From an uncultured Methylophilaceae bacterium (GTDB lineage: Bacteria; Pseudomonadota; Gammaproteobacteria; Burkholderiales; Methylophilaceae), in the NCBI GenBank assembly GCA_903849185.1, contig CAINIH010000092.1, positions 1-34,038 on the forward strand: 34,038 nt of DNA, written 5' to 3'. Shown piece after piece: positions 1 through 6,848 of this stretch. Position 1 is the first letter of the stretch; every line of letters starts with the position of its first letter. The translations under genes were made by a program, and so were the position numbers. The notes under the pieces are model-generated. The model was not told the DNA's origin and ran no database searches. It saw only the letters and a list, made by a program, of their open reading frames with translations.

Positions 1-366
1 AGTGCAAGTATTTTCAAATAATTTATTTTTGGTATTAAAACAATAATAAAAACTGACGGGATTAAAACAATAGCCAAAGTATCTTGGGCTTGTTAAAACA
101 AATATTTTTCCACGATGATTAAAATTAAGATTCTTTTTAATTTCATCTTGCATTGATTTTTTTAAACTATCTTTCGGATTTCCAAAATAATCTGTTCTTA
201 AAAAACAACCCAAATTAAAACGGTTATAACTCCAAAATAAATTATTTGAAAATACTTGCACTAAATCATCAAGATCAAGATATAGCATATGAACACGATA
301 TTGAAATGCGTGCTTCTTAGGCTTTACCCTTGTATGTTTTAAAGTGCCTTCGTAGATTGCATGCAT
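1..366 (-). CDS. DUF1365 family protein, N-terminal 122 residues, truncated by window start
   Basis: Manual minus-strand translation from ATG at 366: MHAIYEGTLKHTRVKPKKHAFQYRVHMLYLDLDDL...SPRYFGYCFNPVSFYYCF..., open to base 1. The H-x-R-x-x-P-x-x-H-x-F-x-Y and RYFGYxFNPVSFYYCF motifs fit DUF1365. Not in the ORF track because no stop lies in the window. The last ~10 codons lie in an inverted repeat and may be artefactual. Confidence 0.85.
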   Translation of the reverse strand, partial: MHAIYEGTLKHTRVKPKKHAFQYRVHMLYLDLDDLVQVFSNNLFWSYNRFNLGCFLRTDYFGNPKDSLKKSMQDEIKKNLNFNHRGKIFVLTSPRYFGYCFNPVSFYYCFNTKNKLFENTCT

Positions 367-1613
367 TAATGAAATCCATGCATTAAATTAAATTGCTGAA
401 TGGCATCGAGGGCACTTTTAACACCATCCTCATGAAAGCCATTGCCCCAATAAGCCCCAGCAAATGAAGTACGATTAACCCCCGAAATTAAATGATAATT
501 TGATTGTGCTTCAATGCTTCGCAAACTATATTGTGGATGTGCATATGAGAGGGTTTTAATAATTTTCTTTTTATTGATTTTTTGCTGTGGATTTAATGTA
601 ACTAAAATAGGTGCTTGAGCTTTTAAATTTTGCAATATATTCATATTATATGTAAGTGATGCTGGTGAAGTAGCACTATTATTAATATGATAATTCCAAG
701 CTGCCCAAGCAAGTTTTCTTTTTGGCATAAAGTTATCGTCGTAATGCAAGACCACTTCATTATCGTTATATGGAATAGCTTTTAAAATATTTTTTTCATG
801 CGAACTTGGGCTTTTTATTAACTTCAAAGCTTCATCGCTATGACAAGCAAAAAATACCCAATCAAATTTTTCTGTGCGATCTTGAAAACAAATAGCGACA
901 TAATCTTTTCTTCTATCTACATACTTTATATTTTGACTGAGTTTAATTTTTTTCTTAAAAGGCTGGATCATTTTCTCCACATAATTAATAGAGCCTCCTG
1001 AAATCGTAAGCCACTGAGGCCTATCATTAATATTTAACATGCCATGATTATTAAAAAACTGGATAAAAAATTTAGCAGGAAACTGCATCATCGCTTTAAT
1101 ATTCGATGACCATATTGCTGAGCCCATTGGCAAAATATAATATTTTTTAAAGAAATCAGAATAATTTTCTCGTTCTAGATACTCACCCAAGTTTATCTCT
1201 TCATCTTTATTTAATAACATGACTGATGACTTATTAAATCTAAGGATTTCCCTAATCATTTTATAAAAGCGTGGATTAATAAGATTTTTTCTTTGTGCAA
1301 AAAGTGCATTGAGATTAGTGCCGTTGTATTCAAAGTCTTTTTGGCTGTCTTTAACACTAAAACTCATCGCACTATTTTCGTAAGGCACTTTAAGTTCATG
1401 TAAAAGTTTTAAAAAATGAGGGTATGTCTTTTTATTAAATACAATAAACCCGGTGTCTACGCTAATTTTTTGATTAAAGAGATTAATTTGATGTGTGTGA
1501 GAATGGCCACCAACTCTATCATTTGACTCAAAAAGTGTAATCTGATGATCAGGATTTAAATAATATGCAAGCGTATTGCCAGAGATGCCTGATCCTATGA
1601 TGGCTATCTTCAT
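366..1613 (-). CDS. NAD(P)/FAD-dependent amine-oxidase-like oxidoreductase
   Basis: N-terminal MKIAIIGSGISGNTLAYYL Rossmann motif, then ESNDRVGGHSHT. Size and neighbours match the FAD oxidoreductase usually found next to DUF1365 and CFA-like methyltransferases. Confidence 0.88.
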   Translation of the reverse strand: MKIAIIGSGISGNTLAYYLNPDHQITLFESNDRVGGHSHTHQINLFNQKISVDTGFIVFNKKTYPHFLKLLHELKVPYENSAMSFSVKDSQKDFEYNGTNLNALFAQRKNLINPRFYKMIREILRFNKSSVMLLNKDEEINLGEYLERENYSDFFKKYYILPMGSAIWSSNIKAMMQFPAKFFIQFFNNHGMLNINDRPQWLTISGGSINYVEKMIQPFKKKIKLSQNIKYVDRRKDYVAICFQDRTEKFDWVFFACHSDEALKLIKSPSSHEKNILKAIPYNDNEVVLHYDDNFMPKRKLAWAAWNYHINNSATSPASLTYNMNILQNLKAQAPILVTLNPQQKINKKKIIKTLSYAHPQYSLRSIEAQSNYHLISGVNRTSFAGAYWGNGFHEDGVKSALDAIQQFNLMHGFH

Positions 1614-1615
1614 GA

Positions 1616-2557
1616 CTAATGATGAAGATGTTCTATTTTTTTAGATTCGCGGATATTGTCAGAGACAGTTCGGATATCCCAAATAATGCCTATCATTACT
1701 AAAAATTTTAAAACATAATAAGTTAAATCAATTTCCCACCAATAAAAGCCTTGTCTAGCCGACCCAGGGTAATGATGGTGATTATTATGCCAACCTTCAC
1801 CAAACGTCAGAATCGCAATAATAAAATTATTCCGACTTGTATCTTTAGTTTCATAACGCTTCTTGCCCCATTGATGCGCTACTGAATTTACTAAAAAAGT
1901 TGCGTGATAAAGCATGACTGTTGAAACTGAAAATCCCCATATCAATAACTGAAAGCCATTGGTATTGAGTTGTGGCTCATATTGATTCAAATAGTAACCT
2001 ACAAAAAATAAGCCAATCGATAATGCTAATGGCATGAGAAGATCAAATCGATCTATGATTCGTAACTCAGGAAATCTGATTAATTCAGGCACAAATTTTG
2101 TATTAGTCACAAAATTTGATTTAGTCAAAAACCATCCCATATGACTCCAAAAAAATCCATGCTCTTGAGGCGAATGTTTATCTTCTGGTGTATCAGAATG
2201 CATATGATGGCCTCGATGATGCGCTGCCCACCATAATGGACCTCTTTGAACTGCCGTAGCCCCAATCATCGCAAATAAAAGTTGTACAAATCTCGAGGTT
2301 CTAAAAGTTTTATGAGAAAAATAACGATGATAAAAGCCTGTAATGGCAAACATACGAATGGCAAAAAGAGTGATGCATACCGTAAAGGCTGTCCAACTAA
2401 ATCCAACGAGAAAAATAAGAAAACAGGATAAATGAAGAAGTATGAAAGGAATCACTCGCATCCAATCAATTTCTTTGCCAGAAGTAATCGAGGCATACTT
2501 TTCTTCTAAAAAAGAATTATCAAACCAAAAAAATAATTTTTTAAACAATTTACTCAT
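1616..2557 (-). CDS. Acyl-CoA/acyl-lipid delta-9-type fatty acid desaturase
   Basis: Three histidine boxes: HRYFSH, HRGHH, HNNHHH; multiple TM segments. ORF track start is 2581, but internal Met at 2557 removes the overlap with the upstream gene. Confidence 0.9.
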   Translation of the reverse strand: MSKLFKKLFFWFDNSFLEEKYASITSGKEIDWMRVIPFILLHLSCFLIFLVGFSWTAFTVCITLFAIRMFAITGFYHRYFSHKTFRTSRFVQLLFAMIGATAVQRGPLWWAAHHRGHHMHSDTPEDKHSPQEHGFFWSHMGWFLTKSNFVTNTKFVPELIRFPELRIIDRFDLLMPLALSIGLFFVGYYLNQYEPQLNTNGFQLLIWGFSVSTVMLYHATFLVNSVAHQWGKKRYETKDTSRNNFIIAILTFGEGWHNNHHHYPGSARQGFYWWEIDLTYYVLKFLVMIGIIWDIRTVSDNIRESKKIEHLHH

Positions 2558-2559
2558 GA

Positions 2560-3081
2560 TTAATTTGAATGTTCTATCCAACGTATTTTATTAATATCAT
2601 AGCCATCGATTTTAATTTTCTCTACTAATCGCTCTAAAGTCTTTTGCTCTATCTTTTTTTCACGAGACATGATCCAGACATAATCCCGATCATCTCTAGC
2701 AATGATCGTATTTTGGTAAGCGTCATCTAAATAAACAATTTTATATTGTGCTTTAATGGGCCATATAAATTGCATGCCCCATTCTGCATTGCCTGAATTC
2801 TTTATAACAAATCCTTTAGGCTTATATGTTTTAGGGGGGCCATTAAGATTACCTTCATTAAAAGTAAAGGTAGTACCAATTGTGCCATCTTCATTTAATA
2901 CATAAGACTCAATTGCATTAAATGCATTCTTTTCAATAAATGTTGGAATATGTCCGATGACGTACCATGGGCCCATAAATTTTTGTAAATTAACTTCAGA
3001 AACAGTTTTAATGGGTGGCTGAGTCATACATCCATTCAATAATAAAAAAAATGCTGTGAGTAAGAAATATTTAAATCGCAT
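2560..3081 (-). CDS. blc: Outer-membrane lipocalin (Blc-like lipoprotein)
   Basis: Lipobox-like LLLNGC in a signal peptide; lipocalin GPWYVIGHIPTFIEKNAFNAIESY motif; C-terminal DYVWIMSREKKI. Confidence 0.85.
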   Translation of the reverse strand: MRFKYFLLTAFFLLLNGCMTQPPIKTVSEVNLQKFMGPWYVIGHIPTFIEKNAFNAIESYVLNEDGTIGTTFTFNEGNLNGPPKTYKPKGFVIKNSGNAEWGMQFIWPIKAQYKIVYLDDAYQNTIIARDDRDYVWIMSREKKIEQKTLERLVEKIKIDGYDINKIRWIEHSN

Positions 3082-3082
3082 A

Positions 3083-3841
3083 TTATGTCTTCCAAAATCT
3101 AGGAATAATAGTATTCACTTTTTTCTGGTAAGTATCATATCCTTTAAATTTCTTAGTAAGATTAGCCTCCAGAAGCGTAACACCTGAAAATCTTAATATT
3201 AAAAAAGTCATAAGAAGAGGTGCGATCAAATTAAAATGGATCCCGGTCGTAAGCGTCGTTATAAAAAGGCCCCACCATACTAAAATTTCACCAAAATAAT
3301 TAGGATGTCGACTTAATTTCCACAAGCCTGACTGTAAAAGTTTTCCACGATTTTTAATATCATTTTTAAATTGCATCAATTGATAATCTGCAATTGATTC
3401 GTAGACTATTCCAAATAGCGTCACTAAAAAACCTAAGGTATCTAGCCAAGTAAGTGGGTGATTATTTTCTATAGCTATAAAAAGAATTGAGCCCACTATC
3501 CAAGCAAGAATCGATTGGAAGCCAAAAATAATATATGCGCTTTTGTATCTAAAATTAGGCTCATTATTTTGTCTAATTTTTAAATAACGCGCATCTTCCG
3601 GCTTACCCCAATTTCTATATGTCAGATAAATCGCAAGACGCACACCCCAGAGCAAGACTAATAAAATAATGAGGCAGGATCTTAATGAGGGTGCAAATGC
3701 AGTATAAAAATAAAGTCCATTAAAAACAAAAAATAAACTCCACATAGTATCAACATGCGTCACATTGTTTTTTCTAAGACTTAAAAGCCAGCCTAGACTC
3801 GCAAATAATAAATTAATAAGTAAGGCATTTAAAAATATCAT
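3083..3841 (-). CDS. DUF1295 family membrane protein (steroid 5-alpha-reductase/ICMT-like fold)
   Basis: Polytopic protein with C-terminal SGLWKLSRHPNYFGEILVWWGLF typical of DUF1295. ORF track start is 3901; ATG at 3841 gives an ATGA overlap with the upstream stop at 3838. Confidence 0.85.
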   Translation of the reverse strand: MIFLNALLINLLFASLGWLLSLRKNNVTHVDTMWSLFFVFNGLYFYTAFAPSLRSCLIILLVLLWGVRLAIYLTYRNWGKPEDARYLKIRQNNEPNFRYKSAYIIFGFQSILAWIVGSILFIAIENNHPLTWLDTLGFLVTLFGIVYESIADYQLMQFKNDIKNRGKLLQSGLWKLSRHPNYFGEILVWWGLFITTLTTGIHFNLIAPLLMTFLILRFSGVTLLEANLTKKFKGYDTYQKKVNTIIPRFWKT

Positions 3842-4344
3842 GCACGGAATCCATTCCATCTTTTTGCAATCACAAAAGATAAAGGTGTTAATAGCGCCCA
3901 TCCTAATGCCAATGCAAGAAGTGCATAAGAATTCATTAGCTGAATCGCATTTAATTTTTCTGCCGCAATATAAGCCAAAGGGCCGCCGATAAGGCCAAAT
4001 AGCACTGCAAGCAATTTATAATGTTTTAACCAACTTAAAGATATATTTAAAGTGGTTGCAAACAATCCCCATAAAGCGACAATCCAAATCGGTACAATAT
4101 ATTCTGAAAACTGGCTTTTGTATTCAATCAATCCAAAAGACAATAAGCATTGATCAAATATGGGGCCTAATAACATGATAAGTAGAAGTAAGATAAATGC
4201 TTCTTTTTTATAACGTGCCTGAATAATATAAATCATGAATATCAAAGCAACAGCTATCATCGATGGAAGCAATTCCTGGTGAGCCGCTCCCCATATCGCA
4301 ATGAACCAGCCCAGTTGGAAAAGTCCGAAATTAATGAGCTTCAT
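3838..4344 (-). CDS. DUF2878 family membrane protein
   Basis: Polytopic ~168 aa protein between a CFA-like methyltransferase and DUF1295, matching the usual DUF2878 context. Confidence 0.7.
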   Translation of the reverse strand: MKLINFGLFQLGWFIAIWGAAHQELLPSMIAVALIFMIYIIQARYKKEAFILLLLIMLLGPIFDQCLLSFGLIEYKSQFSEYIVPIWIVALWGLFATTLNISLSWLKHYKLLAVLFGLIGGPLAYIAAEKLNAIQLMNSYALLALALGWALLTPLSFVIAKRWNGFRA

Positions 4345-5400
4345 TTATTTTTTTGGTTTCTCGAATTGATAATGTGTCACCCACCACTCTTGACCATTTC
4401 TAAAACCAAATAATTCAGCACAAGCCATATAAAAAATTCGCCAACGATTAAACCATTGTGTTGCATTTTTATTGCCATATGTTTTTTGAAGGATAGGATA
4501 AATATCAATTTTTGCTTGATCCATATTTTCTAACCAAGCATTGGCTGTTTTTTCATAATGCGTTCCATCCCAGCACCATTTCTGTTTTAATTTTAGGTGT
4601 TCTTGAAAGTGCAATGGCAAATCATCACTTGGCATCATGCCGCCTGAAAAGAAAAATTTACTCATCCAATCATCTTGATCTTTGACTTCAAATGCGTAGG
4701 GCGTATGTTGATGCACAAAAATATGCATAAAGAATTTTCCGCCAGGCTTTAGCCAATCATTTAGCATGCGATAAAGCTTTCGATGATTGCGCATATGTTC
4801 AAACATCTCAATCGAAACAATCCTATCAAAGCTTTTAGGGATTTTAAAATTTTTAGGTTGAAATCGATTCATATCACATGTCATCACATGAATATTTTTA
4901 AGTTCCCTTTTTTTGGCCTCGCCTTCAATAAAAATTCTTTGGGAGTTTGAATTAGATACTGCAAAGATTCGACTCTTAGGATATTGTTGAGCCATAAAAA
5001 GAGTGAGTGAACCCCAGCCACAACCTAATTCAAGAATTGTCTGGTCATTTTTTAAATCCGCATGTGCTGCACTAATCTTCAGCGCATTCCATTCTGCATC
5101 ATCTAGATTTTTTGTATTTTGATCCCAATAACAACTGCTGTATTTTTTATGTTTTCCCAAGCAAAAATCAAAAAAGGTATATGGCACTTCATAATGTTGT
5201 TTATTTGCAAGGTGAGGGACTAATGCAATAGGTGATTGATCCATACTCTCAAAAAAATCACTTTTTAAGGTTTGTGATTTTTCTGCATCTTCGTGATTAA
5301 TTTCTTCAAGACGTTTTTTTAAAAGCTGTCTAATGCCAAAACGAATAAGCGCGTCTGGAAGGTAGCCTTTTTCTGCAAGTGACAAAGCTTGTTTTAGCAT
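4345..5400 (-). CDS. Cyclopropane-fatty-acyl-phospholipid synthase-like SAM methyltransferase
   Basis: YSSCYWD, SAM motif ILELGCGWGSLTLFMA, and FDRIVSIEMFEHMRNH, as in the CFA synthase family; shorter N-terminus than E. coli Cfa. Confidence 0.88.
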   Translation of the reverse strand: MLKQALSLAEKGYLPDALIRFGIRQLLKKRLEEINHEDAEKSQTLKSDFFESMDQSPIALVPHLANKQHYEVPYTFFDFCLGKHKKYSSCYWDQNTKNLDDAEWNALKISAAHADLKNDQTILELGCGWGSLTLFMAQQYPKSRIFAVSNSNSQRIFIEGEAKKRELKNIHVMTCDMNRFQPKNFKIPKSFDRIVSIEMFEHMRNHRKLYRMLNDWLKPGGKFFMHIFVHQHTPYAFEVKDQDDWMSKFFFSGGMMPSDDLPLHFQEHLKLKQKWCWDGTHYEKTANAWLENMDQAKIDIYPILQKTYGNKNATQWFNRWRIFYMACAELFGFRNGQEWWVTHYQFEKPKK

Positions 5401-5428: not shown

Positions 5429-6433
5429 TTACTTTAACTTATCTAATTTATTCGAAATAACTTCTGCAAGACTCGTATTTAATTGATTGACCTTTTTTTG
5501 AATATTTTGTAGGGCCGTTACATCTTTTTCAGACTCAGCTATTTCTGCCAAGCCCATCATGGCATCAACATGCCTAGGGTTGATTTTCTCAGCCTTAGAA
5601 AATGCGTCTTTTGCAGCTTTAAGATCTTTTTTTCCTTGGTCAGCTAGGCCTAAAAAATACCAGGCATCAGGCGAATTGGGTTCTTCTTTAACCCACAAAT
5701 CTGAAATGGATTTAAGTGTATCCCACTCTTTATTTTGATAAGGGATCACCACTTTCATAAAATTAGGTTTTTGTTCGAACGGCATAGCCCAGAAGGGAAT
5801 ATCTAAAGTTTTAAGTGATTTAGCATCTGGCTCTTTCATAAGCTTTTTAATCCACTCTACCGGCAAGCTGTAAAAAAAACCTTGAGGTCCTGGGCTTTTA
5901 AATGTCGTAATTCCAATTAAATTATATTTTTCATCAAATAGGCCGCCCCCACTTGAACCTAAAGAAAAGGCCGCATCTGATCGAATTATGACACTGCTAT
6001 CTAAGTTATGCATGGCCTTAACTGAACCATAAGATGGCTGCGGCACATTGCTACCATTGGGATAACTAATACTAAAAACATCCTCTTCATATTGCAACGT
6101 TTTACTATCGCGAATAGGGACTGGCTTGAATGGCAACTCTTCAAACTTTAATAGACATAAATCATGTTTCCAATCCGCCTTAAATGCGATCGGCTTATAT
6201 GCATCATCATATTTAGAAATATTGGCCCCTAATGTATTGGCAATCACGTGACAATCGGTCGCAACATACTCTTTACTCACAACAACGCCTGTTCCCGTTC
6301 CTGATGAGCCATCGGGCAGGTCCACATTAACAACGACAATTGAATTATTAAGCTCTAATAATTTTTCAAAGGTAGGAATCGCTTGTACTTGGGTCGCAAT
6401 AAGCAACAAAAATAAACTTATGGTCTTTTTCAT
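5429..6433 (-). CDS. Exported trypsin-like serine protease with C-terminal TPR region
   Basis: MKKTISLFLLLIATQVQA signal peptide from Met at 6433 (ORF track 6544). Triad-like TDCHV, KHDLCLLKF, SLGSSGGGLFD; TPR-like ...DAWYFLGLADQGKKDLKAAKDAFSKAEKINPRHVDAMMGLAEIAE. Confidence 0.85.
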   Translation of the reverse strand: MKKTISLFLLLIATQVQAIPTFEKLLELNNSIVVVNVDLPDGSSGTGTGVVVSKEYVATDCHVIANTLGANISKYDDAYKPIAFKADWKHDLCLLKFEELPFKPVPIRDSKTLQYEEDVFSISYPNGSNVPQPSYGSVKAMHNLDSSVIIRSDAAFSLGSSGGGLFDEKYNLIGITTFKSPGPQGFFYSLPVEWIKKLMKEPDAKSLKTLDIPFWAMPFEQKPNFMKVVIPYQNKEWDTLKSISDLWVKEEPNSPDAWYFLGLADQGKKDLKAAKDAFSKAEKINPRHVDAMMGLAEIAESEKDVTALQNIQKKVNQLNTSLAEVISNKLDKLK

Positions 6434-6485
6434 AGTCAATGTGACTCTTATATATAAATATCGTTCATAGTGATATCTTAAAAAA

Positions 6486-6848
6486 ATGGCAATTAAGAAT
6501 GTTCTTGGAACAAAATTAGAAGTATGTAACCTTAACCCTATCACAGGATTTACAAGAAATGGATGCTGTGAAACAGGTCCAGAAGATATCGGTAAACATA
6601 CAGTATGTGCGGTAGTAACTCATGAATTTCTCCAGTTCTCTAAATTACAGGGTAACGACTTAATCACACCAAGACCGGAATTTGAATTCACAGGATTGAA
6701 AGCTGGTGATCGATGGTGCTTATGCGCAAATCGATGGCTTGAAGCTTTGGAAGAAGGCATTGCTCCTCCAGTGGTTTTAGAAGCTACACATGAAAAGGCT
6801 CTGGAAATAATCGATCTTGCAGAGCTTAAATATCACCAACTAAGGTAA
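6486..6848 (+). CDS. DUF2237 family protein
   Basis: NVLGTKLEVCNLNPITGFTRNGCCETGPEDIGKHTVCAVVT...GDRWCLCANRWLEALEEGIAPPVVLEATHEKAL. Confidence 0.88.
   Translation: MAIKNVLGTKLEVCNLNPITGFTRNGCCETGPEDIGKHTVCAVVTHEFLQFSKLQGNDLITPRPEFEFTGLKAGDRWCLCANRWLEALEEGIAPPVVLEATHEKALEIIDLAELKYHQLR

Follow-up and report, generated by a model that had tools for sequence, protein, structure and literature searches.

Furan fatty acids are antioxidant lipids of plants, fish and microbes. The present work concerns a putative furan fatty acid operon at one end of a 34,038-nt contig from an uncultured Methylophilaceae bacterium (assembly GCA_903849185.1, contig CAINIH010000092.1). The window analysed here is this whole contig, designated C92 of draft genome G000 (1.3 Mb, 153 contigs). 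Seven genes lie on the minus strand in bases 1-5400, and by the list of open reading frames (ORFs) and Pfam all of them are intact except the DUF1365 gene, which is cut by the contig end (Table 1). An earlier, sequence-only reading had described seven packed minus-strand genes with these domains; Pfam bears this out, with the exception that the cut DUF1365 gene does not close the cluster, which continues on another contig, C18.

Table 1. Coordinates of the cluster genes and of the contig-end repeat (window positions unless another contig is named)
Feature	Position	Strand	Remarks
FufM-like S-adenosylmethionine (SAM) methyltransferase, 351 aa	4345..5400	-	PF02353 (CMAS) 8e-34; probable second methylase of the furan ring
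DUF2878 small membrane protein, 168 aa	3838..4344	-	PF11086 1.8e-39
DUF1295 membrane protein, steroid-5-alpha-reductase-like, 258 aa	3083..3859	-	PF06966 4.9e-67; Steroid_dh 2.3e-8
Blc-type lipocalin, probable lipoprotein, 173 aa	2560..3081	-	PF08212 4.9e-36
Acyl-CoA-desaturase-like three-His-box desaturase, 313 aa	1616..2557	-	PF00487 1.2e-20
UfaD homologue, flavin adenine dinucleotide (FAD)/NAD-binding oxidoreductase, 415 aa	366..1613	-	PF01593, PF13450
UfaO homologue, N-terminal part of DUF1365 protein, contig-cut	19..366 (ORF 1-366)	-	PF07103 1.3e-33, 117 bits on the fragment
UfaM-type methyltransferase, eighth cluster gene, intact	G000:C18:7600-8799		94% identity to the copy of a same-genus relative
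Inverted copy of 234-262, contig end	1..29		Perfect 29-nt inverted repeat inside the DUF1365 gene

With start codons picked by means of relatives, neighbouring genes are spaced by 0-2 nt or overlap by 1 and 22 nt. For the desaturase and DUF1295, the TTG/ATG starts proposed by the ORF caller (2581 and 3901, respectively) probably lie too far upstream, and the DUF1295 start was set by comparison with relatives. In same-genus relatives with long enough contigs, the order of genes is methyltransferase, DUF2878, DUF1295, lipocalin, desaturase, FAD protein, DUF1365 and UfaM-type methyltransferase, the second cyclopropane fatty acid (CFA)-type methyltransferase being quite different from the first. 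The sequence-only reading had staked its proposal on co-localisation in relatives, and the gene order proved to be conserved. Because the identical order recurs and the ratios of nonsynonymous to synonymous substitution (dN/dS) are low (0.04-0.13 for six window genes, against one near relative), the packing of the genes is not due to chance. NCBIfam gave no assignment above its cut-offs for any of the seven window proteins. Scans for sigma-70 promoters and terminators returned sites no commoner than in shuffled sequences, and no promoter is claimed.

The window begins with an irregularity. Alignment with a relative is collinear only from about base 19, bases 1-18 being artefactual, and bases 1-29 are evidently a fold-back artefact of assembly. 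Since they invert bases 234-262, the final DUF1365 codons as read belong to this artefact. A genuine gene end inside DUF1365 was considered and rejected. Contig C18 terminates within the 3' end of a DUF1365 gene; in the relative, its end and the window start fall on opposite ends of a single DUF1365 gene, of which about 344 nt lie in the assembly gap. We infer that C18 and C92 join through DUF1365. The eighth gene of the cluster lies on C18; its best match among solved structures is E. coli Cfa, and its product is 37% identical to Rhodopseudomonas UfaM.

According to Lemke et al. 2020 (PMC7380195), furan fatty acids are built on phospholipid chains by three enzymes: the SAM methylase UfaM, the FAD/NAD-binding protein UfaD (RSP1091), and UfaO (RSP1090), a DUF1365 protein that forms the furan in an O2-dependent manner with the oxygen coming from O2. 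The same paper reports that the UfaM-UfaD-UfaO trio of R. palustris suffices for production of 9M5-FuFA in R. sphaeroides and that R. palustris FufM (RPA0924) puts a second methyl on the furan ring. The FAD protein of the window is 38% identical, over its full length (423 columns), to the protein in the Rhodopseudomonas UfaD position and belongs to the RSP1091/RPA2571 family. The DUF1365 fragment, encoded next to it, is 33% identical to the N-terminal part of Rhodopseudomonas UfaO over 114 aa; no convincing relative of DUF1365 was found in PDB. The UfaM family is represented by the C18 gene and by no gene of the window. Given the enzyme families of Lemke et al. (PMC7380195), the FAD protein is thus the counterpart of UfaD and the DUF1365 protein that of UfaO. 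The earlier view that the role of DUF1365 is not established is therefore outdated. The three-His-box desaturase, which the sequence-only reading had named as the desaturase activity of the cluster, was rejected as UfaD, because the pathway desaturase belongs to the FAD-protein family; the three-His enzyme is an extra component.

The methyltransferase of the window has a different affinity from the eighth gene. Its top PDB match is coclaurine N-methyltransferase (6gkv, 214 bits over residues 6-348), E. coli Cfa (6bqc) scoring 89 bits; other solved relatives are plant pavine and tetrahydroprotoberberine N-methyltransferases. Its identity amounts to 47% with the Rhodopseudomonas FufM type, 34% with 6gkv, 25% with E. 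coli Cfa and 22-23% with UfaM types. In a maximum-likelihood tree, FufM types and plant N-methyltransferases stand apart from Cfa and UfaM (support 100/100). The window protein falls within the FufM clade and outside the separate branch (100/96) made by two plant N-methyltransferase rows. Identification as UfaM or Cfa, assumed by the sequence-only reading, was rejected in view of the 22-25% identity, the position outside the Cfa/UfaM branch and the existence of a separate UfaM-type gene beyond the contig break. The window methyltransferase is FufM-like and probably adds the second methyl to the furan ring.

Active-site residues were compared by alignment to E. coli Cfa, in which C139, E239, H266, I268 and Y317 form the bicarbonate site known from Cfa structures. 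The window protein has S/E/H/F/Y at these positions and so lacks the full Cfa set. Among the FufM types aligned, His266 is kept in 60/63, Glu239 and Tyr317 in all 63, and Phe replaces Ile268 in 58/63; in both plant rows, the His and Tyr that the window protein shares with Cfa are missing. Gln takes the place of His266 in 57/57 UfaM-type proteins; with a bicarbonate ligand lost in this way, UfaM might be expected to methylate without closing a ring.

The Rhodopseudomonas reference contigs were found via an LH2 antenna peptide (exact match to light-harvesting chain 7zdi), and five genomes were searched. A single FufM-type gene, directly behind a DUF1295 gene, is present in four of them, a separate UfaD-UfaO-UfaM locus in all five, and a third, Cfa-like gene in R. 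palustris XCP and 2.1.18. This layout matches the published account of RPA0924 (FufM), RPA2571-2569 and RPA3082 (PMC7380195) and is that expected for RPA0923-0924 together with RPA2571-2569. RPA0923 is probably the DUF1295 protein; the strain table of the same paper lists R. palustris deletions of RPA0923 alone and with RPA0924 (PMC7380195).

Distribution of these genes was surveyed in 399 Pseudomonadota genomes, of which 33 carry FufM and 151 UfaD. UfaD is present in 30/33 genomes with FufM versus 121/366 without it (Fisher p ~5e-11, the genomes being phylogenetically non-independent). Of 32 FufM neighbourhoods, 21 have DUF1295 adjacent or nearby, and each of the 12 families represented contributes at least one member to these 21; in 19 neighbourhoods UfaD is found on the same stretch. 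DUF1295 occurs in 15 of 19 UfaD loci with FufM versus none of 19 UfaD loci chosen without it. The latter 19 loci contain the UfaD-UfaO-UfaM unit, often with DUF2878, which sits downstream of UfaM in many gammaproteobacterial cases; the desaturase is near in one locus and the lipocalin in one. These counts associate DUF2878 with the trio and DUF1295 with FufM; desaturase and lipocalin are mainly companions of the full set. The full set also exists in another order: desaturase, UfaD, UfaO, UfaM, DUF2878, DUF1295, FufM, lipocalin (loci L196, L197, L198, L202 and L223, and L200, where DUF2878 was not detected). We take these reordered loci as gammaproteobacterial from their label 'same class'.

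The remaining genes are accessory to the four enzymes, and roles can be proposed for them from their families. The nearest structure to the desaturase is acyl-CoA desaturase 1 (4ymk, 103 bits), and its histidine boxes read HRYFSH, HRGHH and HNNHH. As acyl-CoA desaturases are its closest relatives, supply of monoenoic chains is the simplest guess at its role. The lipocalin has a lipobox-like N-terminus (...LLLNGCMT) and matches PRK10477 (Blc) at 1.3e-21, below the cut-off of that model. DUF1295 has only a marginal PDB match, to steroid reductase 7c83 (E 0.066), and contains the motif RHPNYFGE; this weak likeness to steroid 5-alpha-reductases, together with the motif, suggests NADPH-dependent chemistry. 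Folds related to DUF1295 also include methyltransferases, which weighs on that suggestion. Literature searches that combined DUF1365 with cyclopropane synthase and lipocalin, or DUF1295 with lipocalin, cyclopropane and photolyase, returned nothing.

Two further genes were noticed at the borders of this arrangement. In larger genomes of the family, a DUF6134 gene stands between DUF1295 and lipocalin (L050:7392-8054); the genus of the window is without it. Upstream of the methyltransferase, separated from it by 28 nt and in the same orientation, window positions 5429-6544 encode a trypsin-like protease with tetratricopeptide (TPR) repeats. It may be co-transcribed with the cluster, and it is kept in the same-genus relative L035 and not in family member L050.

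We consider it very likely that the locus is a furan fatty acid operon and that it encodes every step of a dimethyl-furan pathway whose substrates are the acyl chains of membrane phospholipids. The gene families and their neighbourhood are direct observations at this locus; the furan product, as well as its chain length, is predicted from homology and gene order, the four-step chemistry itself having been demonstrated in R. sphaeroides and R. palustris (PMC7380195). In the proposed pathway, UfaM, encoded on C18, would methylate a monounsaturated acyl chain, probably supplied by the three-His desaturase. UfaD would then add a conjugated second double bond, UfaO would insert O2-derived oxygen and close the furan ring, and FufM would attach the second ring methyl. 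To our knowledge, FufM is the sole characterised enzyme for this second methylation in bacteria. Binding or transport of the modified lipids is the probable task of the lipocalin; DUF1295, of a reductase-like family, and DUF2878 may be membrane helpers. The likely purpose of the whole would be to shield membrane lipids against reactive oxygen. The stepwise remodelling of acyl chains towards a furan-type product that the sequence-only reading suggested is thus well supported by homologues of UfaD, UfaO, FufM and UfaM and by their order; its assignment of enzymes to the steps did not hold.

A further proposal, which we regard as tentative, is that DUF1295 is a dedicated partner of FufM, for example by carrying out an NADPH-dependent step that precedes or follows the second methylation, and that desaturase, lipocalin and the four enzymes constitute a self-contained module that supplies the substrate, forms the ring, methylates it twice and transfers the lipid. 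In that case, a furan-lipid enzyme would be the ancestor of most coclaurine-type methyltransferases in bacteria, algae and plants.

Several points speak against a dimethyl-furan operon. No lipid analysis of the source organism or of any Methylophilaceae member was found in the literature. Identities of UfaO and UfaD are modest (33-38%), and the name FufM was given to the Rhodopseudomonas gene from elimination, its neighbour and the literature rather than from an accession. Support for the FufM clade relative to plant enzymes is moderate (85/96). A FufM-type gene without UfaD match occurs in three genomes of one genus (G100, G423, G443), where UfaD may have been lost or FufM may have another substrate. 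When a UfaM-type enzyme from Halomonas was overexpressed in E. coli, cyclopropane acids appeared alongside the methylated acid (PMC12089945). This last result and the modest identities would also suit a locus whose acyl products are methyl-branched or cyclopropane and carry no furan ring, with DUF1365 and the FAD protein performing another oxidation. Maintenance of the UfaD-UfaO-UfaM trio as a unit across Pseudomonadota, and the sufficiency of the R. palustris trio for 9M5-FuFA cited above, make this unlikely. Even less room is left for a monomethyl furan cluster in which the window methyltransferase serves as UfaM or Cfa. Its membership in Pfam CMAS and the need of the pathway for a UfaM are in favour of such an arrangement, but it is already contradicted by the separate UfaM-type gene beside UfaO, in relatives and at the C18 end here, and by the low identity and tree position of the window protein.

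The affinity to plant enzymes raises the question whether the window methyltransferase acts on amines or alkaloids, its position in the cluster being incidental. The best solved relatives are the plant coclaurine, pavine and tetrahydroprotoberberine N-methyltransferases, and Methylotenera protein WP_013148163.1, which resembles Coptis enzymes, has been proposed on that ground to be an N-methyltransferase of berberine degradation (PMC9457531). However, bacterial members share a clade of their own with the Rhodopseudomonas FufM type, they are located in furan gene clusters or co-occur with furan genes, and the two plant rows lack the His and Tyr common to the window protein and Cfa. Likeness to plant proteins is moreover a property of FufM itself, which is 38% identical to Arabidopsis AT4G33110 (Omata et al., PMC10940516). 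An N-methyltransferase of this kind therefore appears extremely improbable. The context of the window methyltransferase points to furan-lipid methylation, unlike the proposal for WP_013148163.1 (PMC9457531), a protein known here by its description.

A gene for the anti-sigma factor ChrR (TIGR02451) was found neither in G000 nor in 15 same-genus genomes (0/61 above cut-off, with a positive Caulobacter control), in a search limited to ChrR. The sequence-only reading had likewise seen no ChrR pair, and control of the locus must differ from ChrR systems, as no ChrR was found in these genomes. Elsewhere, an equivalent gene set is under sigma-E/ChrR control. In S. maltophilia, smlt2375-smlt2367 are annotated as periplasmic protein, acyl-CoA desaturase, FAD oxidoreductase, hypothetical cytosolic protein, CfaS2, two membrane hypotheticals, CfaS1 and lipocalin; these nine genes, under sigma-Ec/ChrR control, are induced about 165- to 700-fold upon ChrR loss, and their deletion in a chrR mutant reverts superoxide tolerance (PMC11832516). 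They were described as membrane lipid modification genes, with furans unmentioned (PMC11832516). In Chlamydomonas, singlet oxygen acts through SAK1 to induce two CFA-type genes, one of which is also annotated as coclaurine N-methyltransferase, together with a DUF1365 gene and a DUF2177 gene (PMC4067076). Our own reading of sequences detected an ECF-sigma-like gene divergent from a periplasmic gene before the desaturase in gammaproteobacterial locus L196. A same-order furan cluster contains, at L193:11524-12684 and L193:12730-14222, a DUF2177 gene and, again by our reading, a divergent pair of ECF sigma and cupin ChrR-like genes.

The compact locus of these streamlined methylotrophs, the S. maltophilia set and the FufM-DUF1295 pair make the pathway and its helpers directly testable. 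Furan chemistry offers an explanation for the effect of the S. maltophilia cluster on superoxide tolerance, and the FufM reading offers an alternative for the Methylotenera protein proposed as an alkaloid enzyme.

Each of the four enzymes of the R. sphaeroides and R. palustris pathway (PMC7380195) has a homologue at the Methylophilaceae locus. The UfaD-UfaO-UfaM order is shared with R. palustris and the pairing of FufM with DUF1295 with Rhodopseudomonas, but in Rhodopseudomonas the trio and FufM occupy two loci, whereas here they form a single locus joined by desaturase, lipocalin and DUF2878. In R. sphaeroides, ufaM lies apart from ufaD and ufaO, and ChrR was not found in the Methylophilaceae genome. 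The Aeromonas salmonicida operon SnoaL-SDR-FAD-DUF1365-cfa-DUF2878 (PMC10012899) shares a core of the UfaD-UfaO-UfaM-DUF2878 type but has SDR and SnoaL genes instead, and FufM, DUF1295, lipocalin and desaturase are not listed in it. A DUF2878 gene, VC1123, belongs to the PhrR regulon of Vibrio cholerae (PMC12971978). Plant coclaurine N-methyltransferases (6gkv, 5kn4, 6p3m) are homologous to the window methyltransferase over the full length, yet they form the separate branch mentioned above, and both rows compared have other residues in place of the active-site His and Tyr of the Cfa superfamily. The S. maltophilia cluster has, by annotation, a matching set of genes in the order of the gammaproteobacterial loci; it differs from the Methylophilaceae locus in gene order and in being controlled by sigma-Ec/ChrR.

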